From positions 1 to 36,261 of IMG/VR virus record IMGVR_UViG_3300035698_016685: a DNA stretch of 36,261 nucleotides; one strand, given 5' to 3'. Below the pieces are notes generated by a model. That model had not been told where the DNA came from. It was given only the letters and a program-made list of their open reading frames with translations, and made no database searches. The position numbers and the translations under genes were made by a program. This document shows positions 16,801 to 34,866 of this stretch, piece by piece (the stretch's first letter is position 1; each line of letters begins with the position of its first letter). Origin of the DNA: a virus.

Positions 16801-19800
16801 GTAAGGAAATCCGTTCGGGTCAATATACTTTGGAGTAGCTAAAGCCGACGACAACTCCCCAGCAAATCTCCACATATTAGAAGAAAAATCATACTGCACT
16901 GGGTAGGAATAGAACGTCCCAGCAGTTTCACTAGTAAGCTCAGCAGAAGAAACCGCCCCGAGCAATCTGTCGTAAACAGTATCGTAAAAAAACGTGGCCC
17001 AAGAATCACCAGAGGTAAAGATAAGCTCTTTTGTTACTGGTAAACGTCTCCACTTATATATTTGGGAAGAAGTACCTGTGTAAACAAGACCAGAAGCCCT
17101 AACAAAATTCGGGTCGTTACTAACTGACACAACAGCCTCAGAAGTTCCGAGCAGAATGGGAAAATCAGATAAACCACCGACTATGGAATACGTATCTGAA
17201 ACCTTAGGGCTTACCAAACCACTATACACTCTGCAATCAAAAACATCTAAATTACTGTTGCTATTGCTTATAAAAGAAACAAATCCGGCCCTAGTGTGTG
17301 ATATAGTATCCCTTAGTTCAAAAATCTTTGCAGAATCGGCGTATACATCCACACCACTAACAGATGTAAAGTGCAATGATAGTGTACTTGGAGTTCCTAT
17401 GTCTGCTGCAGCACAGTCCTGTAGTAACACAGTACTATATGTAACACTAGAACTTAGATAAACAGGACCTACACTGTCGTACACTGACTCAAATCTACCT
17501 GTTCTTATTTCCCCCCCATTCCAAGTACAATAATACCCGGAGCCACTTGTTACTGTTCCATTAGTTTCCCAAACCTCATTGAAACCAACGCCAACAACCC
17601 CTGAGGAGGAGGTTCTAAGTCTACTTGAAACAACTTTTCCAACAGCGTAAGAACTTTCTGTAGTCCTCAAACAAGAGATATCTGTTAACAAGTGTGTACC
17701 GAACGGGCCAGAGTAAGCTGACTCACCAACCACACCACCGTGTCCGTATATTGCCCCACTTTGCTTTAACACACCACTAGCCACAGTCCAACTAGATGAG
17801 CCTACTGCTCCAGGCATATCCGTAACAGCCCAGGACAACGGCACTGCTGCAGAAGTAAAAGAAAAATCTTGCAAATATAACGGCTTACTAAAACTCGTTA
17901 TAGAAACACCAGTTCCTGTTCCAGCAGCAACACTAATGTCAGTATAACCACCCAATACAGTAGAACTCACAGTAGCATCGTGCATAATACCTGACGGCAC
18001 AGGTTTAAACGTAGAACTATCTAAATACTGGTGATTTTTTCCTGTTCCAGAGTAAGTAACAGAAAAATCCCTAACATGGGCCTCTAGAAAATCCTTACCA
18101 CTAACTGTAGTGGAAGGCCAGAACTGAGCGTCAAAACCTATTGACAACTCTTCCATATTGGAATCCGTGTAGGCCAGGTTAGTAGACCCCACGTGAACGC
18201 CATCTATATAAGACGACACCGAAGAGGCTTCTGGGTTGTAAAATAGCTCCCACTTTCTGAAGGGCTCATCCGGAGTGCCCTCAGTGCCACTAAAAGAAGT
18301 TTCTACAGCACTTTTGTAAGGGCTTCCACTAGCCCCCCACAGGTACTCGGAGTAACATAAACCAGCAGTATCTACACCAAGGGCAGGTCCGTCCTTATAG
18401 CAAACAGCATACTTTCTGTTACCGTTAGTATAATCGTAATCGTGGAAGTCGATGGAAAAATCTTTTACCATACCAACAATACTAGAGCTTTCATCGGTAG
18501 ACCCACCAGCAATGTATATATACGTAGTACTGTCTTTCCACTCAGAAATAGTGTTAGTACCAACAAAATCTCCGTCCACAAATGCAGACATTGTCTTTGT
18601 GTCTTGCTCGTAGTGAATCTCCACATATCTCCAAACGGAGTCTTCTTCAGTGGCATCCCCTGTAAAAAATGGTAAATTCGTGGCTGAGTAAGACCAAGTA
18701 TCTGGTGGGTTAGAGTACTCAACAACTCTATATATGCCTTGCTTGTATACATCACTTCTAACTGCCTCAAATGCTAGCAAGCTTGTTACACCGTACGTAA
18801 AATCATTTTTATTAGATAAACCTATTTTAAAAGAAGAAAACGTATCAGGAGCATCATTAATATTATAACTGTACGGACGAAATTTCAGCCTAAGAATAAA
18901 ACTGTGGTTATAAACAGAGTAATACGAGGAAAAAGGGCTATCGGAGAGCTGAAGATTTACTCTACCCCCAATACCAAGGCCAATACCGTACTGTGTAGTT
19001 GTGCACGAGTTTGTATAGTATCTAGAAATATCAGTACCCCTATCTATATTATAAAAGTTAGGGGCACCGTCTAAAAAATCATCGGAATACACAGGACCGG
19101 GAGAAGATATACTATTCCTGGCCGACATATAAACACCACGGTAATCTGAAACAGCAGAGTTAACATTAACGGAGGGCTCACCGTTAAAAACACCAAACCT
19201 TATCTCCCCTGGAGAAGAATCTGGCCAATTCCTCAATCTAACATAAGCCTGTGCTTTAAATGGCCTGTCAGCTACGCCTTTGGACAAAAGAACAGACGCG
19301 CGCTGGCCAGCTTGGCCAATGTAGCCCACAGACCCAGATATAACAGCGTATGTGCCACTAGTCGTTACCTGAAAATTAGCACCGCCATCCACCAATACTT
19401 TAGTTTGATCGTAAGAACCATTGAATACCTCTGAAAAATCTTGTACGTCTTGGTGTAAAACGTAGTCAACATCAAAATCATCCGCCCCTACAGAATAAAA
19501 ATCATAGAGAATGCCTACTTTACCGAAACCATCAGTGCCTCCTGAGAACAACACCTCACCGTTATCAGTAGTTCCAACGGACGATACAGGATTTCTGAAT
19601 TTGCTACTATATATAGTTCCACTTACTAAGGATTCCGCCCCAGACATACTTCCTAGAACAACATAATCATCACCTGTGAACTGAACGTCTTTTATAACAG
19701 ACACACTTGACAACACTTTATCCCTTAGCTGGTATTCTGCTGCGGAGCTTACAGTTATCCACTGAGGAGTTACCCCGTAATAATCAGTAACTCCAGCATT

Positions 19801-21240
19801 ATCAGTTCCAAAGTTTCTGTTCACAATTCCGTGTAATCTTTGTAAACCAGTTGTTGTGTATTTATCAACTAGGTCATTTGTAAAATCTATGATGTAGAGC
19901 CCAGTGGAAGAAACCAAGTAAATTTTACCATTAGCACATGTTACAGAAGAAGGTGGTAGAGATATAGCATTGCCACTCCCATAAAAAAATCTCATCCATA
20001 AGGTTGGGGAGTCAGGTAACCCAGTGGAACTGTTGATGCTTGAGACATCAAGAATAGACAAGGAGGCGCTATCTGAAACTACAACAGCTTTATCAGGAAA
20101 AGCATACTTCATGCCGCGCGTTGAAGAAAAGCCCTCATCGTACCACGAAGGAAATTTGGAGCATCGGCTGACCCAACCGTAAGCATAAGCTCTATGAGAA
20201 GTTACATCTAACGAAGATCCGACGAACCTAAATCTAATAACATGGTTTCCAGTATAAGAGGACGTGTCAACTCCTATAGAACCACCAGACCAAAAAACGT
20301 TGCTTCCTGTTTGCTGCTGTGGATCCTCAGAGTCAAACACAACATCAGAGTCTATAAGAACCTTAAAGTAATTTTCTACCTCATCTGTACTAAAATAACC
20401 ACCTATAGTAAAGAATACTTTATCTACCCCAGTAGTATCTACTGTTCTTGAAAGCTCCGCATAATCAGTTGCCACGGTGTTAAAAAAGTCATTAGGGTAC
20501 AGCATTACTACATCTCTTAGTGGAGCCTTAAATACACCAAACTCAGAAAAGCCTGTCTGAGCGCCACCCCAGTTCTCCAAAATATCTACTTTTATATATC
20601 TAAAGAATTTATCACCGACATGGTGGTAAATTGGAACCACTTCTCCAGACGTTGTGGTAGACCCAGAGATGACAGTCTCGTACAAGGTATCGTCGTTAGA
20701 CGCTGTAATCATATAGTCTTTTGGTGAATTTCCAATATCCGCTAAACCTGACAAACTGTACTGTACTCCAGCCCATTTGAGGTACACTGAATCAAAACTC
20801 CTGGATTGTCCTAAATCAAACTTTGCCCAGGCATGGTTTCCAGACGTGGTGGTCCATGGGTATATTGTATAGTCAGAGCCACTGTTATAACAAAGCCACT
20901 TAGTTAGATTTACAGCTGTGTGTGTGTACTCGTAAGAACTGCTCTCTGATGTAGCAACAGTATATCTTCGTACCAAGTCATTATCACGGTTAAGCAACGA
21001 GTAATTTGCGCAAACGGAGAAGTTCCCCTCTACGGTTGACGAGGAAGAATCCGCCCACCCACCAGCTAAAGCACCATTACTTGTTGTTGCTGGTATATCT
21101 GTTACCCCAGAGTATGTTTTTGTCCACGAGTTTTCAGCAGAGGAGTCGTAGTAAGTGGTAACAAACACATTATTAGACAACAACGGGTAATTGCCAACAT
21201 TGTCCGTATATAATCTGTCAATGTTTAGTGTGTATGTCAT
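13846..21240 (-). CDS. Giant multi-domain virion protein (discoidin, propeller and concanavalin modules)
   Basis: At 2464 residues this is the largest product here. The leader MTYTLNIDRLYTDNVGN resembles that of the 755-residue protein. Approximate modules in order are: discoidin/F5-8 type C-like (105-240, with AWAKFDLGQSRSFDSVYL and FFRYIKVDIL); a LVIVD-like propeller segment (378-450, SLSILDVSS and GKIYLVSSTGLYIIDF); four or five jelly-roll modules near 713-937, 950-1067, 1117-1343, 1808-2038 and perhaps 2052-2223, with repeated FVDGDFVGTN-, YIDGVHVGS- and SIDGTSVGSE-type strands; and a Kelch-like propeller between about 1393 and 1780 (KFYRLSLATNSWILLEDPP). No catalytic residues stand out. 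GAGG precedes the start by 10 bases. It is probably a long tail fibre or adhesin that binds surface glycans. Confidence 0.85.
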   Translation of the reverse strand: MTYTLNIDRLYTDNVGNYPLLSNNVFVTTYYDSSAENSWTKTYSGVTDIPATTSNGALAGGWADSSSSTVEGNFSVCANYSLLNRDNDLVRRYTVATSESSSYEYTHTAVNLTKWLCYNSGSDYTIYPWTTTSGNHAWAKFDLGQSRSFDSVYLKWAGVQYSLSGLADIGNSPKDYMITASNDDTLYETVISGSTTTSGEVVPIYHHVGDKFFRYIKVDILENWGGAQTGFSEFGVFKAPLRDVVMLYPNDFFNTVATDYAELSRTVDTTGVDKVFFTIGGYFSTDEVENYFKVLIDSDVVFDSEDPQQQTGSNVFWSGGSIGVDTSSYTGNHVIRFRFVGSSLDVTSHRAYAYGWVSRCSKFPSWYDEGFSSTRGMKYAFPDKAVVVSDSASLSILDVSSINSSTGLPDSPTLWMRFFYGSGNAISLPPSSVTCANGKIYLVSSTGLYIIDFTNDLVDKYTTTGLQRLHGIVNRNFGTDNAGVTDYYGVTPQWITVSSAAEYQLRDKVLSSVSVIKDVQFTGDDYVVLGSMSGAESLVSGTIYSSKFRNPVSSVGTTDNGEVLFSGGTDGFGKVGILYDFYSVGADDFDVDYVLHQDVQDFSEVFNGSYDQTKVLVDGGANFQVTTSGTYAVISGSVGYIGQAGQRASVLLSKGVADRPFKAQAYVRLRNWPDSSPGEIRFGVFNGEPSVNVNSAVSDYRGVYMSARNSISSPGPVYSDDFLDGAPNFYNIDRGTDISRYYTNSCTTTQYGIGLGIGGRVNLQLSDSPFSSYYSVYNHSFILRLKFRPYSYNINDAPDTFSSFKIGLSNKNDFTYGVTSLLAFEAVRSDVYKQGIYRVVEYSNPPDTWSYSATNLPFFTGDATEEDSVWRYVEIHYEQDTKTMSAFVDGDFVGTNTISEWKDSTTYIYIAGGSTDESSSIVGMVKDFSIDFHDYDYTNGNRKYAVCYKDGPALGVDTAGLCYSEYLWGASGSPYKSAVETSFSGTEGTPDEPFRKWELFYNPEASSVSSYIDGVHVGSTNLAYTDSNMEELSIGFDAQFWPSTTVSGKDFLEAHVRDFSVTYSGTGKNHQYLDSSTFKPVPSGIMHDATVSSTVLGGYTDISVAAGTGTGVSITSFSKPLYLQDFSFTSAAVPLSWAVTDMPGAVGSSSWTVASGVLKQSGAIYGHGGVVGESAYSGPFGTHLLTDISCLRTTESSYAVGKVVSSRLRTSSSGVVGVGFNEVWETNGTVTSGSGYYCTWNGGEIRTGRFESVYDSVGPVYLSSSVTYSTVLLQDCAAADIGTPSTLSLHFTSVSGVDVYADSAKIFELRDTISHTRAGFVSFISNSNSNLDVFDCRVYSGLVSPKVSDTYSIVGGLSDFPILLGTSEAVVSVSNDPNFVRASGLVYTGTSSQIYKWRRLPVTKELIFTSGDSWATFFYDTVYDRLLGAVSSAELTSETAGTFYSYPVQYDFSSNMWRFAGELSSALATPKYIDPNGFPYWPSLYVQKDISTSTDEYGQPQFVSCKDSAITYILTSEIGFSKYSVASKVVELRARRLPEAVLTYSVERSLGAMSYGTRDDGFYYFKGSGGSHCPLFGVPTYSWYDGLIYLTRFVNSVLWWATGDAFWILDPISGNWAADHSGATSVNGLVFHNPPVEDGTVADALVNLDRNQSFVYCETNDSIYSARHNKFYRLSLATNSWILLEDPPFTLDPSDYWKATTIECVSSLNSIFMTNGNDGILYQYDICTGAWTNRFPVPGGTSLHTHLLNVPEKEKLFVHTGASGEFLEFSFPSVKGVSYDTTTFDAGRLPTSSKYGMFSWRGPDSVVVNEGFDFSSLDYGHWYTTASGSAVGTPWTYGGYVSSSADGSLATRVSCNTGPYDNYTRLGGVSSRKAIPAASFTASLAVRNPEISNSNYSVYHVFGVGQGSIATGCAFGTGISPARHFSRGNSGIYACASDSTSYPHRYSLVKRDGSSTTDYLSTSYIAALPGDGSWDSSFRTWDISYNAATATLSFSIDGTSVGSETLSTALDDMFIEIGVLGDEGEDIWNTMEFKNFSVDFNSGVAPVAVKSGTNSLVITKNQEYNADYYYDRTLSELTPASSYIYETKVSVTSATVSNCPYVLSLCRVRDGEKEVNLCALLDGEVKKIGLWTGNNPWSMSDGFVDAIEHDWSVNSVYRVVKNSGTGQMGVYVGDMATPAVTKLYTSLPNVYHSYNRSVSFGNISLSSEPVEILDASFHEGNGTTISGSSWVRVTQDTDSAEFMYSPHSWFGSVIYASTSLGNTDDYVEWVPAVASGTKCLYYCPGRNVSTNSTNAPYTVYHSGLATDLPSYDGYLTNNITAVSIDTTHSGSTETGATTIDVCDNRLANGKGSVNEVFPGFVYLGTYDNITSIVATRDTSDGTYVYPGTMFFYNQERSFRLKSLSTSEWVYVKCEPGVTEFSVDSKSFIGGVNVVDTSSKSVLDFYNSSSDHAIGGDAVNDVSLM

Positions 21241-21252
21241 AACTATTAGGCC

Positions 21253-22440
21253 TCACTCCTGGAAGAACGATAAAATTCCTGCTATTTGTCCAGCAACGTA
21301 TGAGTCAAAATCAGAGGAAATATATAATGTACCTGACCCACCAGCACTAACTCCGCTCACAGTGGTTGCTTCTTCTAAACCAAGAGAGCTCATAATGGCT
21401 GACTCTCCCAAAACCGATGTTGTAAACTCAACACTAAACTGACAAAAGTTACCACGACCAGGTGGCCCGGGTAGTATTGAGTAATTTGTAATAGGCGTGT
21501 AGGCAAGAGAGCCATACAGAGGCCCCCACAAAGGGTCAGTAAGGTCAGGTCCTTGCCCTGATACCCAAGAGCCTATGGGTGTATCACTGAAAACACGTAT
21601 ACCTATTGTGCTACTGCTATCTGTACTGACAGAATAATCTACGTATGCGTTGGCTGTGCTATGGACAGACCAAAAAACCCTTGCAGGACCCATATCAGAA
21701 ATGTCTATTATTGGGCTGGTGTAAAATCCCGTACCACTGGACGAATCCAAAACCAAGCTTGTGCCACTAACAACTACCCCTGAAAGTAAGCCTAACGACC
21801 AAGAATACTGGTCTGGATATCTAAACCCTCGTGCCAGTTTAGCAACGAAGGGGCCCACTAATGAAGAGGAGATACGTACTCCCTCGTCATACTCCGTATC
21901 TTCGTTCGTCTCAATAAAACAATGTATATCTTTTTCGTAATCAGTAGCATTATATACAAGAAGCTCTGATATCCCCGCGTCTGGGCTTGTGTCTACAGAA
22001 TACCCAGAAGGGTTAACTGTAAGTTCGTCTGATTTTGACGTAACTTCTACTTCGTAAGCTAGCGAAAACGGACCAGTGGGAGAGTGCAAAATTCGTAACT
22101 TGGTAGGCCACAGCTCGAAATCCTCCAGCTCCCCTGATACTGACGTGTACCCCGTATGGTCAACAGTGGAGAAGTCTGACCAAACATTACCGTCTTGGGA
22201 ATACTGTATAGTTATTACTGACTCTTCTGTGTAGTAATATCTGACTTCAGAAATCTTGTACCGCGAAAAAAAATCAACCTCGAGTCCTATAGTTCCAGAA
22301 ACAGTAACTGGTTCAGAATCCGTCAACCTGTTAACAAATTTAGCTAGGTCTTCCTCAGAAAGATTGATATCACCTAAACCTGAGTTACTAACTAAAGTTG
22401 GTGCTAAATTATGAACTATCATTTCTATAGAAACCGCCAT
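21253..22440 (-). CDS. Virion protein with discoidin-like N-terminal module
   Basis: This 395-residue protein overlaps the end of the 755-residue gene by 32 bases. An internal ATG at 22420-22422 would shorten it by six residues and reduce the overlap to 14. Residues 45-130 look like a discoidin or carbohydrate-binding module (FFSRYKISEVRYYYTEESVI, TKLRILHSPTGPF). The same order of elements occurs at the N-terminus of the 1734-residue protein (LDVYQVRYYHTDIV, TRFIRIIHSVSPG). A second module follows with LLVYNATDYEKDIHCFIE and SSSLVGPFVAKLARG, which parallels the SIPVYNDYATPVDIKVC and FISTSESGTYYG region of the larger protein. The C-terminus ends in DFDSYVAGQIAGILSFFQE, possibly an oligomerisation helix. 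It appears to be a short member of the tail-fibre module family. Confidence 0.8.
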   Translation of the reverse strand: MAVSIEMIVHNLAPTLVSNSGLGDINLSEEDLAKFVNRLTDSEPVTVSGTIGLEVDFFSRYKISEVRYYYTEESVITIQYSQDGNVWSDFSTVDHTGYTSVSGELEDFELWPTKLRILHSPTGPFSLAYEVEVTSKSDELTVNPSGYSVDTSPDAGISELLVYNATDYEKDIHCFIETNEDTEYDEGVRISSSLVGPFVAKLARGFRYPDQYSWSLGLLSGVVVSGTSLVLDSSSGTGFYTSPIIDISDMGPARVFWSVHSTANAYVDYSVSTDSSSTIGIRVFSDTPIGSWVSGQGPDLTDPLWGPLYGSLAYTPITNYSILPGPPGRGNFCQFSVEFTTSVLGESAIMSSLGLEEATTVSGVSAGGSGTLYISSDFDSYVAGQIAGILSFFQE

Positions 22441-24676
22441 TATTTATAGTAGAGTCTTCGTTTATAGCAGCAGTACTAGTAAAAAAATCTGCGGTGTCTC
22501 TGGTTAAATCTACTACACCGTACCCGTCAGATTTTACGTAATGTACCTTTTTATTTTCTGAGCTAAACTCTAAAAAGACACTTTTGACTTCTCTCTCAGA
22601 ACCACCCAAAGAACTAAATTCAGCAGAAGAATCGTATGTCCTTATATTAGATATTAAAAATCTCTCATCGGGAATGTAAATGACTATTGTTTCTTCAATC
22701 TTCTCTAAACCAATGTATAAATTATGTAGTCCAGAGTAAGCTGATACATCTATTGACTCTGATGTATATATTTCCTCTTCCAATGGTTCCAGCCCAGTGT
22801 AATACCCAACTATTACATCGTCAACCCTCAGACTTAACTTCATGGAACCGTCCCACCAACGGTCCTCCAGGTCCTGTGCCCCTACGATCTTAACGTCATA
22901 GTATAGTCTATCTACACTAGTAAGATCCACATTCTGGTACACACCAGAAAAAGTACCCACTGGTATCTCCGTTACTTCACCATTTCCTGTGATAAACTCT
23001 AAACTTCTAGAAGACCCTGTTGCCCAACTAGAAACTGTTGAGGTGGAACAGGCAAAGATCCAACTAGAGCTGTAAGACAACCAAGAGGAAGCACCAAGAT
23101 TATTAGAAAAAGTAGGGTCATCTATTGGGTTATCTACAGTAACCACGCCGTATGTTTTACTATACACACTATCTTCTGGTGGGTCTAAAAAAACCGTTAC
23201 TCCGTCACCAGTAGCTAATGCTATTTGGTCATTACCATGGTATTCTACCGAGTCCATCCCCAGTATTACAGAGGACGCCAATGAGTATGGAAACGTATCC
23301 TTATCATAAAAACCTGTTCTACTAAAAGTAGTGCCGGAGAACGTTATAAAATGTTCTATATTACTATAGTAAGACAAATCTCCGTTGTTGTTATAGTCAT
23401 AACCGCCCCAATAAAACTTTCCTGAATCTGCTATGAAAGAAGTCATAGAAGGATAAAAACCCTCACTATTATTTATAACCTTAGTTTGGTCAACTATAAC
23501 ACTTATCCCACTTGTTGTAGCAACAGAAACGTATTCGTGCCCATTCAACTCTTTACAAAAAACATTATTGGTATCATCACTTATAAGGGGCGCTACGGAC
23601 TCTTGCGAACTGAATGATAAAATACTATTACGAGTAGACAACCCAGAGGTAGAACGCAGTAAAGAACCACCACTATACCTAAAAACAGCGTCTTCTACGA
23701 AATCCAAAATGAACAAACCGTCAGATGTGGACAAATATACCTTACCATTTATTGCCGAAACATCACAACTAGCATCTGTAAACGCTTTAGAATCCCCAAG
23801 TATAAATCTAGCCCAAAGTGACATATCATTATGGTCAACAATGGACATACCAACGTCGTCTACTAACAATATAGTCTTTTCAGGAAAAGTCTGCGCGGGG
23901 CCCCTATACTCTGAGATAAACGAAGTAGGGGATGTAAGAGTACCTACAACACTAAAAAAAGAAGCAGAAGAAGAAAAAGTGTTCCTTTGTTTAGTCTCAA
24001 CGCCTATTGATACAGAAGCATCTTCTTCCCACTCTACACCAGTTACCTCCCCTAGTAAAGTGGAACCAGCATAGCAACTAATAGTAGAACCAGTCCTACT
24101 AATAGTAAACTTTCCAGGATTGCTAACCGCTACGCTACTCGATAAAGCAGACCAACCAAAATAAATCGGATTTGCTCCTGCAGTGTAGAGTGCTTGGTAA
24201 GACGTAGTTGTGTCTCCGTAGTTAACAACTTTTGCTACCCTAAGATTGTAATCTGAAGCTAGTGTAACATTCATACCAAAAGATGTGGCTGACCTGTATT
24301 CGTCATTAAAAATGGAGTCGGAAATGCCAAGAGATATAGAAAAATCTCCTGATAAGCTCCACAGTGTATCCGAATCTAGATATAGCTTACCGCTAGCATC
24401 TGTAACTGAAAATGATACCCCTTCTCCGTCGACATCTATGGAGTGTTGGCCCACTATGGTTGAGTTTACAGACCACCTACTTGTGTCTATGGATAAATAA
24501 AACGGATCGTTTGGTAGTGTTGGCTCAAGAAACCAAGAAGCCGTACCTACATTACCAGCCCTGTCCCAAGACTCTCCTGAGGCGTCATAAAACTTTATTA
24601 GCCTAGTATTGTCAGAAAATACTATTTTATTATTGTTACCGTCCCTATAGGATGAATCATATAAAGTATAGCTCAC
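22409..24676 (-). CDS. Large virion protein with concanavalin-like and propeller modules
   Basis: This 755-residue protein starts with GTG (24674-24676) three bases after the TGA of the 1734-residue gene, whose end supplies GGGTGA. Its leader SYTLYDSSYRDGNNN resembles that of the 2464-residue protein. Residues 70-245 form a jelly-roll module (SGKLYLDSDTLWSLSGDFSI, STISCYAGSTLLGEV). Residues about 265-340 match the propeller segment of the 2464-residue protein almost motif for motif: MSIVDHNDMSLWARF, GKVYLSTSDGLFILDF and LSTRN. Further blades contain short VATTSGISVIVD-type repeats. Residues 540-680 form another beta-sandwich (SVDRLYYDVKIVG, GLHNLYIGLEKIEE). A tail-fibre or adhesin subunit is likely. 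No enzymatic motif was found. Confidence 0.82.
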   Translation of the reverse strand: MSYTLYDSSYRDGNNNKIVFSDNTRLIKFYDASGESWDRAGNVGTASWFLEPTLPNDPFYLSIDTSRWSVNSTIVGQHSIDVDGEGVSFSVTDASGKLYLDSDTLWSLSGDFSISLGISDSIFNDEYRSATSFGMNVTLASDYNLRVAKVVNYGDTTTSYQALYTAGANPIYFGWSALSSSVAVSNPGKFTISRTGSTISCYAGSTLLGEVTGVEWEEDASVSIGVETKQRNTFSSSASFFSVVGTLTSPTSFISEYRGPAQTFPEKTILLVDDVGMSIVDHNDMSLWARFILGDSKAFTDASCDVSAINGKVYLSTSDGLFILDFVEDAVFRYSGGSLLRSTSGLSTRNSILSFSSQESVAPLISDDTNNVFCKELNGHEYVSVATTSGISVIVDQTKVINNSEGFYPSMTSFIADSGKFYWGGYDYNNNGDLSYYSNIEHFITFSGTTFSRTGFYDKDTFPYSLASSVILGMDSVEYHGNDQIALATGDGVTVFLDPPEDSVYSKTYGVVTVDNPIDDPTFSNNLGASSWLSYSSSWIFACSTSTVSSWATGSSRSLEFITGNGEVTEIPVGTFSGVYQNVDLTSVDRLYYDVKIVGAQDLEDRWWDGSMKLSLRVDDVIVGYYTGLEPLEEEIYTSESIDVSAYSGLHNLYIGLEKIEETIVIYIPDERFLISNIRTYDSSAEFSSLGGSEREVKSVFLEFSSENKKVHYVKSDGYGVVDLTRDTADFFTSTAAINEDSTINNGGFYRNDSS

Positions 24677-24679
24677 TTG

Positions 24680-27600
24680 TCACCCGTTATGGATTTTTAT
24701 TTTCGCGCCAGAAAAAAACGTGTTAGGAACAACAGTGTTCCTATTACTAATCATTGACATACGTCCTATACCGTTAGCATCTAACAAACTTTGTCCACTA
24801 GACATAATATGAACTGGAACAGACCATGAAGTACCACCACTTGAATAACAATATAGAATCCTATTTATACCCTCAGCATCAGTACCAACATACCACATTT
24901 TATATGTGGAGGCGTCAAGTATTACACTTGGGTAATGTGCTGATACAATGTCGTAATACCCGAAGTAACCAGTAGGAATCACCACCTTATGAGAATCCCA
25001 GACAACACCGTCAACAGAGGAACAACGTATTATACTAGATTTATAACCAGAGTCAAGTCCGGAGTACCACATAGTATACACACCTGCTTCTGAATCGTAT
25101 AGTACAGACGGAGCATAAGAAGACAACTCGTCAGGGTACCCTACCATGGTGACAGTCTTTACGTCAATAGCAAGGCTAAACCCTACCCAAGACAATCCGT
25201 CAACAGACTCACTAAATAATATACGCCTAAACCCATCTGCTAAACAGGAGCCTGTGTACCACATGAGGTATTCAGAACTTCCTTTACGAACTACACAGCA
25301 ATGGCCTGCCGCGGCAGTATCATAAATACCATTAGAACCAAGAGGAACTACTTCATTGGTAGTTTGCCAATCATACCCATCAGACGAAGTAGTGTAATGC
25401 AGCGAACCACTTGCGACTGTACTGTAAGTTTCGCCATGGCCTTGTGTTACCCACATATCATAACTGGAAACATTATTTTTTATTACACTTGGACTTACAA
25501 AAGAAGTATAAGAAGAACCAGAAAGTGTTGAAGCAAGAACATTACTAGAGTAACCAACAGCTATACCGTCAGTAGAAGTAACAAAAAAAGAGGACCATCC
25601 AAAAGCATTTCCAAAATCTTTTAAACCACAATACCAACCTTCGTAAGAGGCTACAGTAGACACGCCAACTTTAACGTAAATATCGTCCGTCCCCGAGACA
25701 GGGACTTGACGTATGGTCTGTGGGATGATAACTGAAGCCTTTTTAAGCTCTGGTGTAACACTAGTGTCTTGGTCCGCCCATAAACTAACCGAAAACTGTA
25801 CATATCTATCCTGAGACATGGCTTCTCCGTAGTCTGCCACGTCTACCCAAGGCGCCTCTGTAGTTATATTACCCCCGCAACCCCAAACTTGATCGTATTT
25901 AGAAGGCAAGAAACCGTGTTCCCACGCATCTTGCACTACTTTGGTACGACGAAAAGAGGCATTTCCCACATTAACCACACCGGAGTACACGTACCCGTTG
26001 TAAAACCACGGAGCAGCAAAAGTTAGAGCCCTGTCCAAAGGATAGGCACCGCCTCCGTACGTCCACTCTAGTCTTTCAGAAGACAAAGAAGAAACAACAG
26101 AATGAATAATAGACTCTGAAATAGTATCAAATACAGAAGGAGTAGCGTTAGCAGAGTAATAACCAGGCAAAATTAGAATAACATCACCACACAAAATAGG
26201 GCAAGCAAATTCTCCTATATGGTTGGGTATTTCATCTACAGTCCTCCACGTATTAAAAGGTATATCATAAACATCAACATACCTATTAGCAATACTTGTA
26301 GAAATGTCATACCCGCCAAATATGTAGACAGAGCTACCCTTTAACACAGGCCATAGCTGCGTTCTGTTTTCGTAACCATGTAGCGGCATTTGCGCTAAAG
26401 ATGGGTCCCAATTGCCACTTTCAGGATCCATTACAATCGTAGTGCCGTCCTTACAAAAAAAATACAGGTCTTCACCATAACCTACCATACCGCCATACTC
26501 GGCTTCCTCTGGCCAACTTACTCCTAAGTATCTCCAACCAGTTATATCATAACTATCCGGGGTTATAGTATACCTGACAATACGTTTGCTGTCTGTATTG
26601 CCCATAAGAGCTGCTGCATATAGATCACCATTGTCTAACACTACACAGTGGTTGGACAATGTTGGGGCTGCTCTCAAGTTCTCACCTGGTAGAGCCATAA
26701 AATCAAGTACGCTCCAGCAGCCAGTTACGTGGTCGTAAGAAATTGGCCTGTAGCTCGCGTCTATTGGTAATATATATACCTTAGACTCAGCTACTACCCC
26801 AATTTGTGGCCAATTATTGTACTGATCTAGGGGGTCGCCTGCATCTGCTCCAAATTCATACTCTGTACCTAACAACGGCGTAACCCAAGGCAACCAATTA
26901 AGATATTTATAATCAGATTTGTTTACGGGGGCGGAGCTAAGAGAGCGTACCAAAACGGTCCCAGAAGTTGTGGGACCCATTTTTAAATCTGTAAACAAAC
27001 GTTCTGTGTTTAACCCTTCTTCAGTGTCAAAAACAGGTGAGGTCAAAAATCCGTATAACTTAGCAGTAAACACTGACATAGACCCTATATTCATTACATC
27101 AACCTCGGACACACGGTCACTGGAAAGTGCCTCAAGTACAATAACCCTTATAGCCTCAGTTTCCACTGCGGTATCGAACTCAACGTACAAGGATGACTGC
27201 AAATGTACCTCGCATGACCCGTGAATACCCCAGGGCCCAGCCCACCTAAAATCATTTTTTGCTACCACATCCTCAGGCATGAACCAGAATTCCGTAGGCA
27301 TGCCAAGACAGTCATTATAGGAAAATGCCACGTCAGTGTAGTACTCGCCATCATTGTTGTCTATAAAAAACTGCCTATATGTGGTGTAGTCTCCACTAAC
27401 ACCACCGTAAGGTTGCTCGATAACTGGTACGTCTGCCCAATCTTCCTCTATAAGAGGGTCTCCACCAAACACTAAATATTGCACCTTGAACTTATTTATT
27501 AGGCCCTTAGAGGCCGCTACATTTAAACCAGAGCCCCAAGACAAGTGTACAGCCTTTACAGTACACCTACCTGGAAGTCTGCGCCATACCGCAGTTGGAA

Positions 27601-29884
27601 GTACAAAATTCCACAAAACAGCTTCAAAATTGCTGATATTGTCTACTTCTGTATCCCTACTCAAAAACACATTGTACCCTCTACCGTTTTCGGCCGCAAT
27701 CGGTACACGACCATAAACAAAAGAATTGGATACGTCGTAATCATATCCTCTAATTAGTAATGAAGGATCCCTGACCCTGGCAACTTCAAAAACTGCTTTG
27801 TCTATACCAATTGCCCCAACACTTCCGTATTGTTTAGTATTAAAAGTTTCGCACCTACTCCACGGAACTTCTCCACTAACAAGTGGTGTTGGATAAGAAA
27901 AAATAGGTGCATAGTAATCCTCCGTAATACCAAATTCCCTGATGCCAAGGGCAGATAAGGCAGCTTCCCCATCGCCTGGTACCCCGCCGATAGTAGAAAA
28001 ATATACCTTTACTGAGGAAGCTCCAGATATAGTTGTTGGTACTCCGTAAGAATCCATAAATCTATAAGAAGTAATCTCATCACCACCAGTGCCAACAGTG
28101 TACAACACAGGATTGCCACCGTCTACACTCACACTAATGCTCTCAACGTAATAAGACAAGTACTTAGTAATACCGGACCCTGATATATTTGTAATATAGT
28201 GGTTGCCACTAGAGTAGTCAAACGAAGGATTTGTTATAAAAAATCCTGTTATATCAGGAGAATCCTCTAAACTAAACTCTATCCAATCGTTCTGGGCTAC
28301 TTCGTAACCACTTACCCACTCAGTATCAGTGTTATCTAGTAGTTTTTCCGGGCCGTGGTAGCCTGTATCTAAAGAACTGTAAGAAGTAGCAGACGCTTTA
28401 TTAAGTAGAGACACATTTCTTTGTACAAACAACTCTTCAGTACTTATACTAAAATCTTTAAACACCAGCTCACCACCAGCATCGTTGTCTACGTCAGCTC
28501 CTATGAATATTCTACACCCAGCATCTGGTGAATTGGTGAAACGGTAACTTCCTATTTCTATGGCGTCAATATAGCAACGAACAACTTTATCTACGTGATC
28601 CCAAGTTAAAATTATGTCCCTAAAATCTGCAAGCTGTGTGTAATCTCCGTTTTCAACACCTGGTCCTGATATAATTTCCTGGAGCTCAGAGAATGTTTTA
28701 GTGCCAGATTGGCTCCAGCTGGTTCTAAAGTCATTATCTTCCATTCCAGCGCCATCTGTGTACATAACGTTGTAATCTAATTCTGTACTTGCTATTACAA
28801 ACGCAACACCGGATCGGCCAAACCGAGTGGAGTAGCCCTCATCTTTGTAAGGCCAACTATAATTTCTAGACACTGAGGGTAACGGAGTAGTATTTGAAAA
28901 ACCAAAAGAAAAGTCAAACCCACCATTATAACTAGTGTAACTATCCAACAGTTTTACTTTAACACGTAACGTAAAACTTTGATTGGCTGTAAACGTTTGA
29001 GAACTCAGCAGCCCGTAAAATCTAGCAGACAACGGGCTCATTGGCGCGGAACGTTGCTTACTGGACGCCCTTATACTAATACCCTCAGCTGTGACACTTA
29101 AAGACCCCTGGCCCATTCCTTGGAGTACTTCCCATTGTTCAGAAATATCCAGAATAGACAAGTAGGAAAAAGAATCATCAACTAAAGACAGTACCTCATT
29201 AGCAGGGACTGAGAACCCAAAATCATTTATACCGTAGTAAGTGCCGGATTCAGAAGTGCTTATAAAAATATAACCATCTTCCTCATTTCCTGTGGGGGCT
29301 TGACAAACTTTTATGTCTACTGGTGTAGCATAATCATTGTATACAGGAATAGAGGTACAGGACGACGAGGTATAAGCCACAGGACCATTTAGTAACCGTA
29401 AATAGTCAGTCTCTTCTGAAAGAGATGCTCCAAAACCAATCTTGTCATTCTCAACACCATCTATTACTACCTGGTGTATACTCTCTGATTGACCAGGGGA
29501 CACTGAATGAATGATACGTATAAATCTAGTGTCTCCTACCACTTCAGACACACTATAACCAGAAGCAGTGGTAAACGCCATTTCTCCTAAATTGTTGTTA
29601 TCTAACCCGTACAAAAAAGTAACGCCAGATGCAACAATATCTGTATGGTAATATCTAACTTGATAAACATCCAACGTCTGACCCCAATGTGCCTCGAAAG
29701 CAACTACTGACCCTGACACAGTGGCGCCTGAGATTGTAGTGACTACAGACGAAAGGTCGCCATCATATAGGTTTACTAGCTCGGATGCCAATAGTTGCTT
29801 CGTAACCATACCGGTAGAATAGACAGGGACATTGTATATATTGCCCTCTTTAATTACATTGTAATCAGCTAGTTTTACCATCAT
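24680..29884 (-). CDS. Giant tail protein with C-terminal glycosidase-like five-bladed propeller
   Basis: This 1734-residue protein overlaps the upstream giant gene by an ATGA junction, with GAGG 5 bases before the start. Modules in order are: discoidin-like (about 20-160); jelly-roll (250-480, RDIILTWDHVDKVVRCYIDA); a second discoidin-like domain (495-600, LLDNTDTEWVSGY and WIEFSLEDSPDITGFFI); mixed beta domains; and a Kelch-like propeller (1026-1243, KVYILPIDASY, YIFGGYD, NTWRTVDEIP). The end (about 1411-1694) has four blades of the type PSV-...-Y-MWY(S/T/V)G-...-RI/II-...-S.DG..W. This is the signature of the five-bladed propeller superfamily of GH43, GH62, GH32 and GH130. A glycan-binding or polysaccharide-cleaving tail protein is inferred. 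The acidic catalytic triad was not confirmed by eye. Confidence 0.85.
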   Translation of the reverse strand: MMVKLADYNVIKEGNIYNVPVYSTGMVTKQLLASELVNLYDGDLSSVVTTISGATVSGSVVAFEAHWGQTLDVYQVRYYHTDIVASGVTFLYGLDNNNLGEMAFTTASGYSVSEVVGDTRFIRIIHSVSPGQSESIHQVVIDGVENDKIGFGASLSEETDYLRLLNGPVAYTSSSCTSIPVYNDYATPVDIKVCQAPTGNEEDGYIFISTSESGTYYGINDFGFSVPANEVLSLVDDSFSYLSILDISEQWEVLQGMGQGSLSVTAEGISIRASSKQRSAPMSPLSARFYGLLSSQTFTANQSFTLRVKVKLLDSYTSYNGGFDFSFGFSNTTPLPSVSRNYSWPYKDEGYSTRFGRSGVAFVIASTELDYNVMYTDGAGMEDNDFRTSWSQSGTKTFSELQEIISGPGVENGDYTQLADFRDIILTWDHVDKVVRCYIDAIEIGSYRFTNSPDAGCRIFIGADVDNDAGGELVFKDFSISTEELFVQRNVSLLNKASATSYSSLDTGYHGPEKLLDNTDTEWVSGYEVAQNDWIEFSLEDSPDITGFFITNPSFDYSSGNHYITNISGSGITKYLSYYVESISVSVDGGNPVLYTVGTGGDEITSYRFMDSYGVPTTISGASSVKVYFSTIGGVPGDGEAALSALGIREFGITEDYYAPIFSYPTPLVSGEVPWSRCETFNTKQYGSVGAIGIDKAVFEVARVRDPSLLIRGYDYDVSNSFVYGRVPIAAENGRGYNVFLSRDTEVDNISNFEAVLWNFVLPTAVWRRLPGRCTVKAVHLSWGSGLNVAASKGLINKFKVQYLVFGGDPLIEEDWADVPVIEQPYGGVSGDYTTYRQFFIDNNDGEYYTDVAFSYNDCLGMPTEFWFMPEDVVAKNDFRWAGPWGIHGSCEVHLQSSLYVEFDTAVETEAIRVIVLEALSSDRVSEVDVMNIGSMSVFTAKLYGFLTSPVFDTEEGLNTERLFTDLKMGPTTSGTVLVRSLSSAPVNKSDYKYLNWLPWVTPLLGTEYEFGADAGDPLDQYNNWPQIGVVAESKVYILPIDASYRPISYDHVTGCWSVLDFMALPGENLRAAPTLSNHCVVLDNGDLYAAALMGNTDSKRIVRYTITPDSYDITGWRYLGVSWPEEAEYGGMVGYGEDLYFFCKDGTTIVMDPESGNWDPSLAQMPLHGYENRTQLWPVLKGSSVYIFGGYDISTSIANRYVDVYDIPFNTWRTVDEIPNHIGEFACPILCGDVILILPGYYSANATPSVFDTISESIIHSVVSSLSSERLEWTYGGGAYPLDRALTFAAPWFYNGYVYSGVVNVGNASFRRTKVVQDAWEHGFLPSKYDQVWGCGGNITTEAPWVDVADYGEAMSQDRYVQFSVSLWADQDTSVTPELKKASVIIPQTIRQVPVSGTDDIYVKVGVSTVASYEGWYCGLKDFGNAFGWSSFFVTSTDGIAVGYSSNVLASTLSGSSYTSFVSPSVIKNNVSSYDMWVTQGHGETYSTVASGSLHYTTSSDGYDWQTTNEVVPLGSNGIYDTAAAGHCCVVRKGSSEYLMWYTGSCLADGFRRILFSESVDGLSWVGFSLAIDVKTVTMVGYPDELSSYAPSVLYDSEAGVYTMWYSGLDSGYKSSIIRCSSVDGVVWDSHKVVIPTGYFGYYDIVSAHYPSVILDASTYKMWYVGTDAEGINRILYCYSSGGTSWSVPVHIMSSGQSLLDANGIGRMSMISNRNTVVPNTFFSGAKIKIHNG

Positions 29885-32800
29885 ATAAACCTCGATATCT
29901 CTACCTTAGTTTTTCTATTCTTTTCACCATCCACAGTACTTGTTATTTCATCCTTCCCGCGGACAAAAAAATTAAACAAAGCATCAGGGTATACGTCTCT
30001 AACTAGTAAAGGAAGACTAGACGAACCGTAACCAAAAAAGTTAGTTCCATCTAGAGATAACTCAACCATATCCCTGGATTTTTTTGTGGAAAGAGTAAAA
30101 GAATCTGACAAAGAGGATGAGAAATCTCGTCTAGGGTAGTTATAAACCCTAAGGTTGTCAATAACACCGTCGAGGCCAGATACGTCTTTAGTTGCAAAAC
30201 CTGACCACGACTTTCCACCCACCATAAGAAAGACGTCCCTATGCATACTAAGAGAAAACTCTTCCTGCAAAGTAGCTTTGTAAACAGAAGAAGAAAGTTG
30301 GCCATTTATGTATATGTCCACAACAGTGGGCCTATCTAAACTAAAATCCCAGACTAACGCGAAATGGACCCTACTACCAGCGACTATAGAAACCTCAGAA
30401 TCATCTGAGTGGGTGATGATATTTTTTCCGTTACTAATAAAAACCCGGAGGCCATTAGTAGTCATCAACACATCCATAAGGTAATCGTGCTGGTTCATAA
30501 ATCTAAATAAAGAATGAGCGCGCAAATCAGAACATGAGTTACACCCATTGTCTCTTGACCAGTCGGGATTTAGAAAAAACTCGATAGCACCAGAAATGGG
30601 ATTAAACTCTGACATTGGGAACTTCAGGTACTCCTCAGAGGATAGGTACAAACCACTGGGAGTTTCGTCAGAGTACAACAGCCTAAGAATCTCTAGGCCA
30701 TCTATTTTTACTGTAAACGTAGAGTTATTTTCTACCCCTCTAAACCTAAATTCAAAGTTTGTGAATCTGCTGCGGCGCATAGAGGAAAGAGTAGAACCAG
30801 ACAAATTTCTAGTAAATCTGGGCTCACCAACCTTATTGTCAGCAATAAAAGGCAACAATATTACATTCCAACCATCCACAAGGCTATCTGAAAAATCTGC
30901 TAGGTCCCACACAAAAAAGTTGTCAGTGTCGTCAGAAAAACTATTGTTATTAAACGTTTTACTGCCCCACGTATCTCTCCCAAGTTTGATGTAGCTGTAA
31001 CCAGTGTCTATTTGCGTGACATCACTAATGTAAACGCACACACCCAAAGCATCTCTAGGAGAAAGACTATTATCGTAACCTAAAAATTCTTGAAGTTTTA
31101 TATAATCACTAAGTCCCTGGCCTGAATTACTTGAATACTCAAGTGCAACGCAACCACCTACATAATCACAGTAGTCGGAGTCTAGATAAACACTACCAGC
31201 ATTTCTGGATGACCATGCCCTAGTAGAGGAGTAAAAAGATTTTGACAATGAAGAATTCTTGTCAACAAAAACAGCTATCTCATCGCAAGTTTCTTTAACC
31301 AGTACCCATTTATCAGAACCCGACGGTGGATCTCCAAAAGCGCGCCAACGGACTTTAGCTGGTACATCAGTACTATCTCCGGAGAATGCTATGTTTTGAT
31401 TAGTAAGAGCTGAACTGAGGCTGGTACACTCAGATAACTTGTCATCTATCTCGTCGTAACAATTATACGGCCCAGCAATCACCCTTTGTACATCAAAAAA
31501 AGCACCTAGGTTTACACAGTGATAATAAAAGGTATCAGCTACAACCCAGCTCTCCGGAGTATAAGACCTATCACCTGAACCACCATTTGTAAGCCTTTGC
31601 TCTGAAACCCAAGAAAAACCAGCATCGTAATTACATTGGCTGGTTACTTCTAGCACAGCAGAAATATAACCTAAAGTATTGATACCAGAGGCTCCAACTT
31701 CTGCCGACTGGTTGTGTAATTTTATCCACCTTGACTCAGAAGAATAATTAAGAACCCAACTACCCACAGGTATCAACGCTGGGTCACTAACATCATACGA
31801 AGAATACCACACACTATCATTCCATCCATCATCTCCGTAAACACTGGTGGCTTTAAATAGCTTTACTACTGAAAAGTCAAACTTACCACCACAATCAACA
31901 GCCACATACGTTTTTGGTTCAATAGGAAAAAGCGGATTTTCGTTAGTTACGTACTTAGCTACAGAAGGTATCAGTATATTGTTATCTATGGACAACCAAT
32001 TTTCGCCATCGTACGACACAAAACACGGAGAATTTTTGAGAAAAAAAGAATCCATTACATATGCTGGGGCCCCTAAAGCAGCATTACCGTACGAAAAAGA
32101 AAAGTTATCTCTTCTGTAAGATATGCCTCCTGAGCCAACCTCAGAGTTTTCTACTTCATTATCTGAGCCCAAGGTATTCCACAAAATGCAACGTTCTTCC
32201 TTATTGTCCTCGTCAGAAATATTTATGGAAAAACTACAAACAGAAGCAGAATTATTTTTTACTGGTACTACCGCGTAACCTTCCTGGGGATTATTTACTG
32301 GCGCACCGAGCATAATATCTTCTGGAGACAATGTAGCAGCTCTACTCTCTGTACGACCTAAAGATGCAGATACGGAACTAACACTAAGAAGACTAGTAGG
32401 CAATACTTTAAATTTTATGCTGGAAATAGGGTACCCTATAGTAAAACCAATGTCAGTTATTGATATCTCATTTACGTCAGTGTGCTCTAAATAGTTTACA
32501 CCATCTACAGAAGTGAACACCTCAAAGTTATCAGAAACATTTGTAACTGGGTGTGCAAACGCGTACACCTCAATCTCTTGTATTTTGGAGTCGATAAAAA
32601 TAGGGAAGTCAGTTAAAGTATCAGCATAAAAATTGGTGGACTCCACAGTTCTTTCCAAATACCCTCTATACCTTATCGACCTAGCTTTTACTGGGTCGAA
32701 CTTAAAATCTATTGTTCTATACTCAGTCTGCACGTACTCAGAATGGTAATCCCCAATCACTATATTAGCTGGATTAGAATAAAAATATCTTGAAGAGTCA

Positions 32801-34863
32801 GCTAAAGTATTATCAAGACTAACACTGCTAAATGTAGAAACTACTGGCTCCCATGCACGAACAGTGTCTGATAGATTTGTTGAGTACGGCCTATCTATGG
32901 AAAAACTTTTAATATTTTTATTTTCCGCGAAAAAAATAGTAACTCTACTAATATCAAAAAGTACACCAGTATTTGGAGCAAAATCAAGTATCAAGCCAGC
33001 CTCAGTAAAATCATACTTTGCGTCAGTTTGGTCCCACTGCGGATAAGCAGAATTAGACACACCGTTAGTGTCGAGCTTTTCTCCGTCAACCACGTACTCA
33101 ACTCCTGTCCATTCAGGGGCTTTTACGCCGTCACTGTCATACCCAGTGTAGCCTGTTACGTAAGGACCACCTAAAATACCCCCAGACTTTAGTTTAGTTA
33201 ATGGTATGTACTCTTCTAGTACTGCCTCAGTTGCTCGGATACTAAAAACCTCAATGGGCTCCGGGGAGTCAAAATTAATCTGCACTACTGCTGAATCAGC
33301 TCTTTCGGATCCCCTACAAAATATAGGAAGTCCGTGATCTCCATCACCACTAAGTGCCACAGAATAAATGCTTCCTAATAGATTACCAGCATACTCCACA
33401 TATGAAAAGTTTCCAACATTAACATCGTTACCTGTGTGTATTTTTACATCGTATAAACCTAGTAAATCTCCTCGTTGTACCCTAATAACACACTCTACTT
33501 CAAATATCTTATCTTCATTGGAGTCTAACGTACTTCCTATATTAACACCGTCTATGTAATGTATACTACCATCTAAACGTTGTCTATATATTCTAAACTC
33601 AGAAGTTGTATTTGCATCTCCGGAGAAAAAAGCCTTTACTAACACACCGTTGTCAGTTACTGGGTTATTATAATCAATAAACGTTTTATTAAAAAAGTCT
33701 ACTTTAGTGGTATAAGCTAACCCTATATCAGGGTCCTTATTAACAAAAAGGAAATCTTCTCGGCCCGCCTGCACAACGTACTTATGGGGGTCAACGTAAA
33801 ACACGTCAGAAACAGTGGTTGAGCCACTATCATAGAATCTGTCTAGCTCATATCTTGAAAGTTTAAACGATGCCTCTGGTTCATACCTAGACGCTGCCTC
33901 CTCCCCAACATAAGAAACATAGGTTGCTTCCTCAGAGGCTGAGAAAAAACCAAGGGCAAAACCACACGAGCGAGAAACTGGTTCTGATAAAACAATAGTA
34001 GACGAAGATGACCTTGTGTCTGCCTCTATCACTAACGAGAAATCCTCTACGTAGCAAAGAGCGTAAGTGTACCCACCAATACCTACTATATTTAATTTAG
34101 CTTCTACGTCTTTTGCTATTGTGGACAAAGTAGAATTTACAACAGGATCCAGCATTATAGCCTGGTCACCAAAAGAGTTTATATTAACTATTATCTTATC
34201 ATTAACATTCTCTTGTATCGTTATACCAGAAAATAACTGAGTACCAACAACCTTGGAACCAGCACCAACAAACGGGCAGGGGTGCTCAAAAAGCGCGAAG
34301 TGGCTGCAACCAGGAGTATTAAATCTTGTAGAACACGAAAAAACAGAATCAGAGACCACCTTGATACTTTTTACAAACACCTTTTGCCCGGAGTCACCAT
34401 CAATAAAAGGAAACAGTTTAAGCCTAACTACAGTACCAATCCATTCCTGGTCTTGCGACATATCTATAGTGTACGTTCTATAACTATTATCTGCGGTAAC
34501 TGTAAACTCAGCAACCTTACTGACATCCCAGGCGACATCATCAGACACCATATACTGTATTTTGGCTTTTGTTGGAACAACATGGCCATTGCCAGGGTCA
34601 AGCCTCATACTTATTTTTATTTTAGCGTGTGACCCAGCAGAGACCTCCATATTATTAGCTTCTGTAGTTATATAACAAGAAGGAGCAGTAGATACCATAA
34701 AATAATAACCATTGGCTACAAGCCTAGCTGTGACTCCACCGTAGACAGTGTAGTTTCTAAACTCATCTTCCTGGTCCCAATACACAGAAAAAGCTTCGTT
34801 AGTGTCGAACTTACAAGAAGTACTATTATGTATACTGGCATTTCTTAGTGGGTTTATAGCCAT
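29881..34863 (-). CDS. Giant virion protein with carbohydrate-binding-like and LamG-like modules
   Basis: This 1660-residue protein begins with MAINPLRNASIHNSTS. An N-terminal beta-sandwich (about 60-170, SAGSHAKIKISMRL, TVVRLKLFPFIDG) resembles carbohydrate-binding modules. Several discoidin-like segments follow (for example PISSIKFKVLPTSLLS, FDVQRVIAGPYNCYDE). Near 900 lies a VPVKNNSASVCSFSINI segment similar to the post-discoidin modules of the 1734- and 395-residue proteins. Residues 1408-1580 form a LamG/concanavalin domain (LYLSSEEYLKFPMSEF, VHFALVWDF, VDIYINGQLSS, GLDGVIDNLRVYNYPRRDF), the most clearly recognisable part. The ATG lacks a close Shine-Dalgarno sequence; GGGAG is 18 bases away. 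It is the first intact gene of the adhesion cluster after the broken zinc-ribbon gene. Confidence 0.83.
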   Translation of the reverse strand: MAINPLRNASIHNSTSCKFDTNEAFSVYWDQEDEFRNYTVYGGVTARLVANGYYFMVSTAPSCYITTEANNMEVSAGSHAKIKISMRLDPGNGHVVPTKAKIQYMVSDDVAWDVSKVAEFTVTADNSYRTYTIDMSQDQEWIGTVVRLKLFPFIDGDSGQKVFVKSIKVVSDSVFSCSTRFNTPGCSHFALFEHPCPFVGAGSKVVGTQLFSGITIQENVNDKIIVNINSFGDQAIMLDPVVNSTLSTIAKDVEAKLNIVGIGGYTYALCYVEDFSLVIEADTRSSSSTIVLSEPVSRSCGFALGFFSASEEATYVSYVGEEAASRYEPEASFKLSRYELDRFYDSGSTTVSDVFYVDPHKYVVQAGREDFLFVNKDPDIGLAYTTKVDFFNKTFIDYNNPVTDNGVLVKAFFSGDANTTSEFRIYRQRLDGSIHYIDGVNIGSTLDSNEDKIFEVECVIRVQRGDLLGLYDVKIHTGNDVNVGNFSYVEYAGNLLGSIYSVALSGDGDHGLPIFCRGSERADSAVVQINFDSPEPIEVFSIRATEAVLEEYIPLTKLKSGGILGGPYVTGYTGYDSDGVKAPEWTGVEYVVDGEKLDTNGVSNSAYPQWDQTDAKYDFTEAGLILDFAPNTGVLFDISRVTIFFAENKNIKSFSIDRPYSTNLSDTVRAWEPVVSTFSSVSLDNTLADSSRYFYSNPANIVIGDYHSEYVQTEYRTIDFKFDPVKARSIRYRGYLERTVESTNFYADTLTDFPIFIDSKIQEIEVYAFAHPVTNVSDNFEVFTSVDGVNYLEHTDVNEISITDIGFTIGYPISSIKFKVLPTSLLSVSSVSASLGRTESRAATLSPEDIMLGAPVNNPQEGYAVVPVKNNSASVCSFSINISDEDNKEERCILWNTLGSDNEVENSEVGSGGISYRRDNFSFSYGNAALGAPAYVMDSFFLKNSPCFVSYDGENWLSIDNNILIPSVAKYVTNENPLFPIEPKTYVAVDCGGKFDFSVVKLFKATSVYGDDGWNDSVWYSSYDVSDPALIPVGSWVLNYSSESRWIKLHNQSAEVGASGINTLGYISAVLEVTSQCNYDAGFSWVSEQRLTNGGSGDRSYTPESWVVADTFYYHCVNLGAFFDVQRVIAGPYNCYDEIDDKLSECTSLSSALTNQNIAFSGDSTDVPAKVRWRAFGDPPSGSDKWVLVKETCDEIAVFVDKNSSLSKSFYSSTRAWSSRNAGSVYLDSDYCDYVGGCVALEYSSNSGQGLSDYIKLQEFLGYDNSLSPRDALGVCVYISDVTQIDTGYSYIKLGRDTWGSKTFNNNSFSDDTDNFFVWDLADFSDSLVDGWNVILLPFIADNKVGEPRFTRNLSGSTLSSMRRSRFTNFEFRFRGVENNSTFTVKIDGLEILRLLYSDETPSGLYLSSEEYLKFPMSEFNPISGAIEFFLNPDWSRDNGCNSCSDLRAHSLFRFMNQHDYLMDVLMTTNGLRVFISNGKNIITHSDDSEVSIVAGSRVHFALVWDFSLDRPTVVDIYINGQLSSSVYKATLQEEFSLSMHRDVFLMVGGKSWSGFATKDVSGLDGVIDNLRVYNYPRRDFSSSLSDSFTLSTKKSRDMVELSLDGTNFFGYGSSSLPLLVRDVYPDALFNFFVRGKDEITSTVDGEKNRKTKVEISRFI

Positions 34864-34866
34864 AAT

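Follow-up and report, generated by a model that had tools for sequence, protein, structure and literature searches.

A predicted five-bladed propeller of the GH130/GH117/GH43 superfamily, lacking acids at the catalytic position, at the end of a giant viral protein: a probable binding module

The stretch of DNA analyzed here (hereafter the window) corresponds to an entire IMG/VR virus record (36,261 bases), in which the minus strand carries all genes of substance. A replication module occupies its left part, with genes for a primase, a DnaB helicase, a UvsX-like recombinase, and a polymerase processivity factor. The products of its middle and right parts are very large and poorly annotated proteins (755, 1734, 1660, and 2464 amino acids), several of which include lectin-like domains. 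The protein of interest is the 1734-aa product P0001, and LamG, discoidin-like, and lectin-like domains were found in the proteins adjoining it. Specifically, a LamG-type domain was detected in the 1660-aa protein (30130-30492, minus strand; E=1.5e-6), an L-type lectin match in the 2464-aa protein (13846-21240, minus strand), and weak discoidin-like matches both in the latter and in P0001 itself (28220-28390, minus strand). Together, these matches probably mark a whole cluster of sugar-binding proteins. The 2464-aa protein also shares a segment of ~100 aa (residues 371-476) with residues 254-350 of the protein at 22409-24676 (minus strand; 34% identity, E~1e-12), and the repeats of the form NGKIYLVSSTGLYIIDF within this segment may represent a further propeller-type repeat, common to two neighboring giant proteins. 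Upstream of the giant structural genes, an 83-aa ORF (34854-35105, minus strand) resembles a DUF4379-like treble-clef zinc finger (E=2.9e-5).

P0001 belongs to a cluster of genes on one strand, separated from one adjoining gene by 3 bp and overlapping the other by 4 bp. No PHROG tail match and no family match pointing to a tail role was obtained for it, its first 800 residues had zero relatives in a scan of viral contigs, and tblastn against INPHARED phages returned nothing for the propeller domain, the remainder of the protein, or a 918-aa neighbor. A Kelch_3 match (26225-26338, minus strand; E=4e-5), upstream of the region described below, probably reflects an additional propeller of a different type.

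Five related blade repeats of ~60 aa each lie within the last ~320 residues of P0001. A first-pass annotation, made from the sequence alone, had described four motif repeats between positions 24800 and 25650, each followed by an S.DG..W segment. All four motifs are indeed present on the minus strand, but the S.DG..W segment is exact after only the first three (SSDGYDW, SVDGLSW, and SVDGVVW) and reads SSGGTSW after the fourth, and just upstream of the four clear repeats there is a fifth, degenerate in sequence (YEGWYCG...TSTDGIAV, residues 1412-1444). The region is the same, with core strands extending slightly further than first given. The features are as follows:

24680..29884, minus strand: P0001, 1734-aa ORF, giant structural-type protein with the propeller at its C-terminus
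24746..25645, minus strand: five-bladed beta-propeller, core strands, residues 1414-1713 (AlphaFold2, Foldseek, strand map)
25535..25645, minus strand: strands b-d of blade 5, from the degenerate WYCG repeat, pairing with the C-terminal strand in the velcro closure (HMM, AlphaFold2, strand map)
25346..25504, minus strand: blade 1, strand 1 beginning FVSPSV; MWVTQ at residue 1477, position 25456 (motif, HMM, AlphaFold2, strand map)
25166..25312, minus strand: blade 2, strand 1 beginning AGHCCV; MWYTG at residue 1541, position 25264 (motif, HMM, AlphaFold2, strand map)
24977..25123, minus strand: blade 3, strand 1 beginning SYAPSV; MWYSG at residue 1605, position 25072 (motif, HMM, AlphaFold2, strand map)
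24809..24943, minus strand: blade 4, strand 1 beginning AHYPSV; MWYVG at residue 1663, position 24898 (motif, HMM, AlphaFold2, strand map)
24746..24769, minus strand: blade 5, strand a, IGRMSMIS, ring closure with the N-terminal strands (AlphaFold2, strand map)
24683..24745, minus strand: C-terminal tail NRNTVVPNTFFSGAKIKIHNG past the propeller, low confidence (AlphaFold2 pLDDT about 30-40)

We evaluated these repeats with an HMM built from the repeats of a distant relative (L002), itself found by a single-protein scan of viral contigs and carrying dozens of such ~60-aa units. This HMM recovered all five repeats of P0001 (E=1.9e-29 for the protein), compared to a best value of 0.38 across 200 shuffles and none below 0.29 in the other reading frames of the window, and the possibility that the repeats are an artefact of one long ORF was rejected on the latter ground. 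Blade-to-blade alignments made without the HMM and evaluated against shuffles gave p about 0.001 for pairs 2-3, 2-4, and 3-4, and p of 0.004-0.014 for blade 1 against blades 2-4, with the degenerate fifth blade weak when taken alone (p 0.03-0.18). The motif MWYxG by itself is no evidence of relatedness, since nearly all of the 30 stretches matching the pattern YRMWYxG were chance occurrences, except in one giant relative; only HMM-scored loci were thus counted as relatives.

When modeled with an alignment of eighteen sequences of five-blade units, AlphaFold2 predicted one closed five-bladed propeller (pLDDT 77.7, pTM 0.82; model m0573f9c63c8d); with nine sequences, the corresponding values were pLDDT 66.6 and pTM 0.74. 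The predicted strand order is 3 + 4x4 + 1, i.e., three strands, four complete blades, and one final strand. Blade 5 would therefore be composite, with strands b-d provided by the N-terminal degenerate repeat and strand a by the C-terminal IGRMSMIS, which lines up with the corresponding blade-5 strand in relatives including L012. Velcro closure of this type is usual in propellers, and a four-bladed or open propeller was rejected because the predicted strand order closes the fifth blade. Relatives provided independent support for a five-bladed unit: many include exactly five repeats, one (L016) includes ten, and two from metagenome-assembled genomes (MAGs) include fifteen.

The best PDB matches of this model in Foldseek were GH130 enzymes (beta-1,2-mannobiose phosphorylase 7fip, and 9fj8), BT_0996, GH159 (7zei), GH117, and GH43, all with probability 1.00 and with moderate TM-scores of 0.5-0.6. 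At the sequence level, a family profile (A3) searched against PDB sequences matched GH130 (1.1e-15 and 3.3e-15), GH117 (4e-14), GH43 (1e-8), and GH32 (3e-6). This similarity to characterized members was seen only through the family profile: the single window sequence had no direct match in Pfam, PHROGs, NCBIfam, or PDB sequences, a phmmer search of the propeller domain against PDB returned a chance match only, and neither PF04041 nor any NCBIfam model was above cut-off for P0001, although the arrays of relatives L002 and L056 did pass PF04041. An Asp-box/BNR sialidase was also considered, as S.DG..W is Asp-box-like, but rejected given that the best matches are GH130/GH117/GH43 and that the P. 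gingivalis sialidase matches at an rmsd of ~15 Å; tachylectin was absent among the best 50 Foldseek matches and among the sequence matches. The first-pass annotation had proposed a five-bladed glycosidase-like propeller, to be checked by comparing a predicted structure with GH43 and GH130 folds, and this comparison bears the proposal out. As judged from the predicted structure and profile matches, the C-terminus of P0001 belongs to the GH43/62/32/68/117/130 superfamily of five-bladed propellers.

Next, we evaluated whether the catalytic acids of this superfamily are present. In the GH130 enzyme BT3780, either substitution, E141Q or D142N, abolishes activity, and D142 is invariant across GH130 (PMC4599007). 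In the HMM alignment, the corresponding motifs LEDPR (9fj8) and VEDPR (7fip) coincide with the point where strand 1 of a blade begins, i.e., columns 18-19 of the repeat model. P0001 reads VS, GH, YA, and HY at these columns in blades 1-4, and GR in blade 5 (via the alignment to the fifth blade of L012), so that none of its five blades carries an Asp or Glu there. The Glu-Asp of the GH130 EDPR motif is hence missing from every blade. The dyad residues of GH43 enzymes are likewise located where strand 1 begins, in two of the blades. An Asp/Glu dyad is conserved in GH43 structures from all subfamilies, and even a distant GH43-like endo-xylanase retains both residues, base and acid, in their canonical places (PMC11022575). 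In P0001, a GH43-type Asp base and Glu acid are missing at columns 18-19 in every blade. This column-based test can detect acids when present: the viral relative L019 (239-4438, plus strand) reads YDP, HDV, and EDA, and its propeller, which retains acids at several catalytic-type positions, is a candidate active enzyme within the same module family.

Across the 134 distinct blades of the family, the E18+D19 combination was found once. Columns 18 and 19 displayed entropies of 3.58 and 3.78 bits, compared to 1.05, 0.58, and 0.39 bits for columns 22, 33, and 35, and columns 18, 19, and 36 were the most variable within the strand 1-2 region, beside near-invariant structural columns. Loops on the presumed active-site face were also more variable than those on the opposite face (mean entropy of 3.24 vs 1.92 bits, p=1.5e-4), with faces assigned from propeller topology rather than from model coordinates. 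This variability supports, without proving, a diversification of binding, as relaxed constraint after loss of function would lead to the same pattern. Taken together, these results speak against the first-pass suggestion of a depolymerase and favor its second option, a propeller turned into a binding module, which it had tied to the lack of an acidic pair in the funnel. At the sequence level no such pair occurs at columns 18-19, although acids from loops, e.g., D191/E192 of the domain, may reach the funnel.

Several relatives carry the propeller on proteins with recognizable tail, baseplate, or tropism functions. In L012, a tail-assembly domain (phrog_1082, E=3e-63) is followed by a Thr/Ser linker, five blades, and a C-terminal stretch that appears LamG-like by eye, and the gene is flanked by a tape-measure gene and a baseplate-hub/BR0599 gene. 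The ten blades of L016 are carried by a baseplate-wedge-like protein, L039 is a propeller protein with a major-tropism-determinant N-terminal domain (Mtd_N), and L036 combines DUF2341, a propeller, and LamG in one protein. By analogy with the tail, baseplate, and tropism relatives, the P0001 product is probably part of the virion; the first-pass placement of the propeller on a phage tail protein is supported by L012, L016, and L039, and extends to P0001 by inference. A single 223-kb contig (IMGVR_UViG_3300033141_006329) encodes two propeller proteins, L039 and L050, whose blades closely resemble each other, the differences being mainly confined to a few positions. A Caudoviricetes genome assigned to the archaeal Methanofastidiosa encodes a weaker relative (L014, BK063668.1) of about five repeats. 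On groundwater MAG contigs assigned to Nitrospinota (L056:3159-5954) and Deltaproteobacteria (L057:4896-7616), the fifteen blades form three propellers each.

The most extreme relative is a 5681-codon ORF (G001; IMGVR_UViG_3300037498_000121, 37135-54177, minus strand), listed together with loci L002, L043, L045, and L059, which encodes ~70 GH130-like blades in tandem five-bladed propellers. It includes 74 repeats at a domain E-value ≤1, of which 67 score above 15 bits. The similarity between its repeats peaks at a lag of 5 (p=0.0006), and blades of a shortened, closing type appear at intervals of exactly five repeats (4165, 4464, 4767, and 5066). This array is unusually large for propellers in a phage protein. 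The non-blade flanks of the same ORF appear LamG-like by eye.

Overall, the explanation we consider probable is that P0001 ends in a complete five-bladed propeller akin to GH130, GH117, and GH43 in which the active site has been erased, and whose funnel face binds but does not cut a ligand, likely a host glycan, as part of host recognition by the virion. Under this scenario, the propeller would descend from, or share a common ancestor with, the GH130/GH117/GH43 glycosidase superfamily; its catalytic site would have been erased; the funnel face would retain the capacity to bind a ligand without cleaving it, most likely a host surface glycan; and the domain would operate in the host-recognition apparatus of the virion, located distally on a giant structural-type protein. 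A binding module is favored because the catalytic residues are gone, the domain occupies the distal end of such a protein, and lectin-like domains surround it. For P0001, we infer that the protein is present in virions, that the ligand is a glycan, and that binding contributes to adsorption. A broader possibility, which we consider plausible yet would not bet on, is that tailed phages, along with at least one archaea-assigned virus, have made the GH130-type propeller a general receptor-binding scaffold, in which the frame is kept, each blade diversifies at the former catalytic position and in the loops of that face, and duplication of whole propellers yields up to ~14 of them (~70 blades) per protein.

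Alternatively, the propeller could be a spacer or subunit-contact domain without a ligand of its own, helping to build a long tail fibre or baseplate appendage. The tandem blades of the giant relative could act as such a length module, and the funnel positions appear unconstrained; yet a single C-terminal propeller adds little length to P0001, related propellers are found on receptor-binding-type proteins (Mtd_N in L039), and the combination of conserved structural columns with one variable face fits binding diversification better, which makes this alternative unlikely. Propellers often bind proteins, and no sugar-specific residue signature can be defined in the P0001 propeller, so that the module could instead recognize a protein ligand such as an S-layer, pilus, or outer-membrane protein; however, both the carbohydrate-active ancestry of the superfamily and the co-occurring LamG, discoidin-like, and lectin-like domains point to sugars, and we regard a protein ligand as rather improbable. 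Finally, it is very unlikely that the propeller is an active depolymerase or glycosidase cleaving capsule or exopolysaccharide with non-canonical funnel acids: the fold is common to GH130, GH117, GH43, and GH32 enzymes, phage endosialidases are propeller enzymes (PMC4901313), and L019 suggests that the family may include active members, but acids are absent from columns 18-19 of all P0001 blades and rarely paired elsewhere in the family, the dyad is kept across GH43 even in the distant endo-xylanase (PMC11022575), and the C-terminal fusion is like that of tail binding modules.

If the binding-module interpretation is correct, an enzyme fold has been repeatedly repurposed as a phage receptor-binding module, which would aid host-range prediction and supply glycan binders. 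Annotation pipelines would leave P0001 blank and might label its relatives "GH130 mannoside phosphorylase", both of which are misleading. Comparing the acid-retaining propeller of L019 with the acid-free one of P0001 would provide a direct test of a transition from cutting to gripping.

Among known systems, GH130 enzymes (Teth514_1788 9fj8, beta-1,2-mannobiose phosphorylase 7fip, and BT3780) are the best sequence and fold matches, and are similarly five-bladed with the signature yYMmYTG...S.D...W. Unlike these enzymes, P0001 includes neither the EDPR Glu-Asp nor any blade-specific active-site motif, and its propeller is a C-terminal module of a phage structural-type protein. It likewise shares fold and blade motif with GH117, GH43, and GH32 enzymes, but without their DP/E-type catalytic acids. 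The clearest structural precedent, by analogy, for the P0001 propeller as a binding module would be Gp45 of Staphylococcus phage phi11, a tail-tip receptor-binding protein with a five-bladed platform propeller, a sugar-sized cavity, and DALI neighbors that are mostly carbohydrate-degrading enzymes (PMC4901313), enzyme-fold neighbors also being found for the P0001 propeller. Gp45 is a trimer of ~640 aa with a mid-protein propeller, whereas the propeller of P0001 forms the C-terminus of a 1734-aa protein, and Gp45 structures were absent among the PDB matches of the family profile up to E=10. The giant ORF belongs to the same blade family as P0001, but displays runs of propellers where P0001 has one. 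Phage receptor-binding propellers are thus already known as a kind, and no description of this family of MWYxG/GH130-like blades serving as a phage tail module was found in the literature searched, outside of which most subscription papers fall. What is new here is that the former active site is erased and variable, that the module recurs across tail, baseplate, and tropism proteins of different kinds, and that the giant relative carries so extreme an array.
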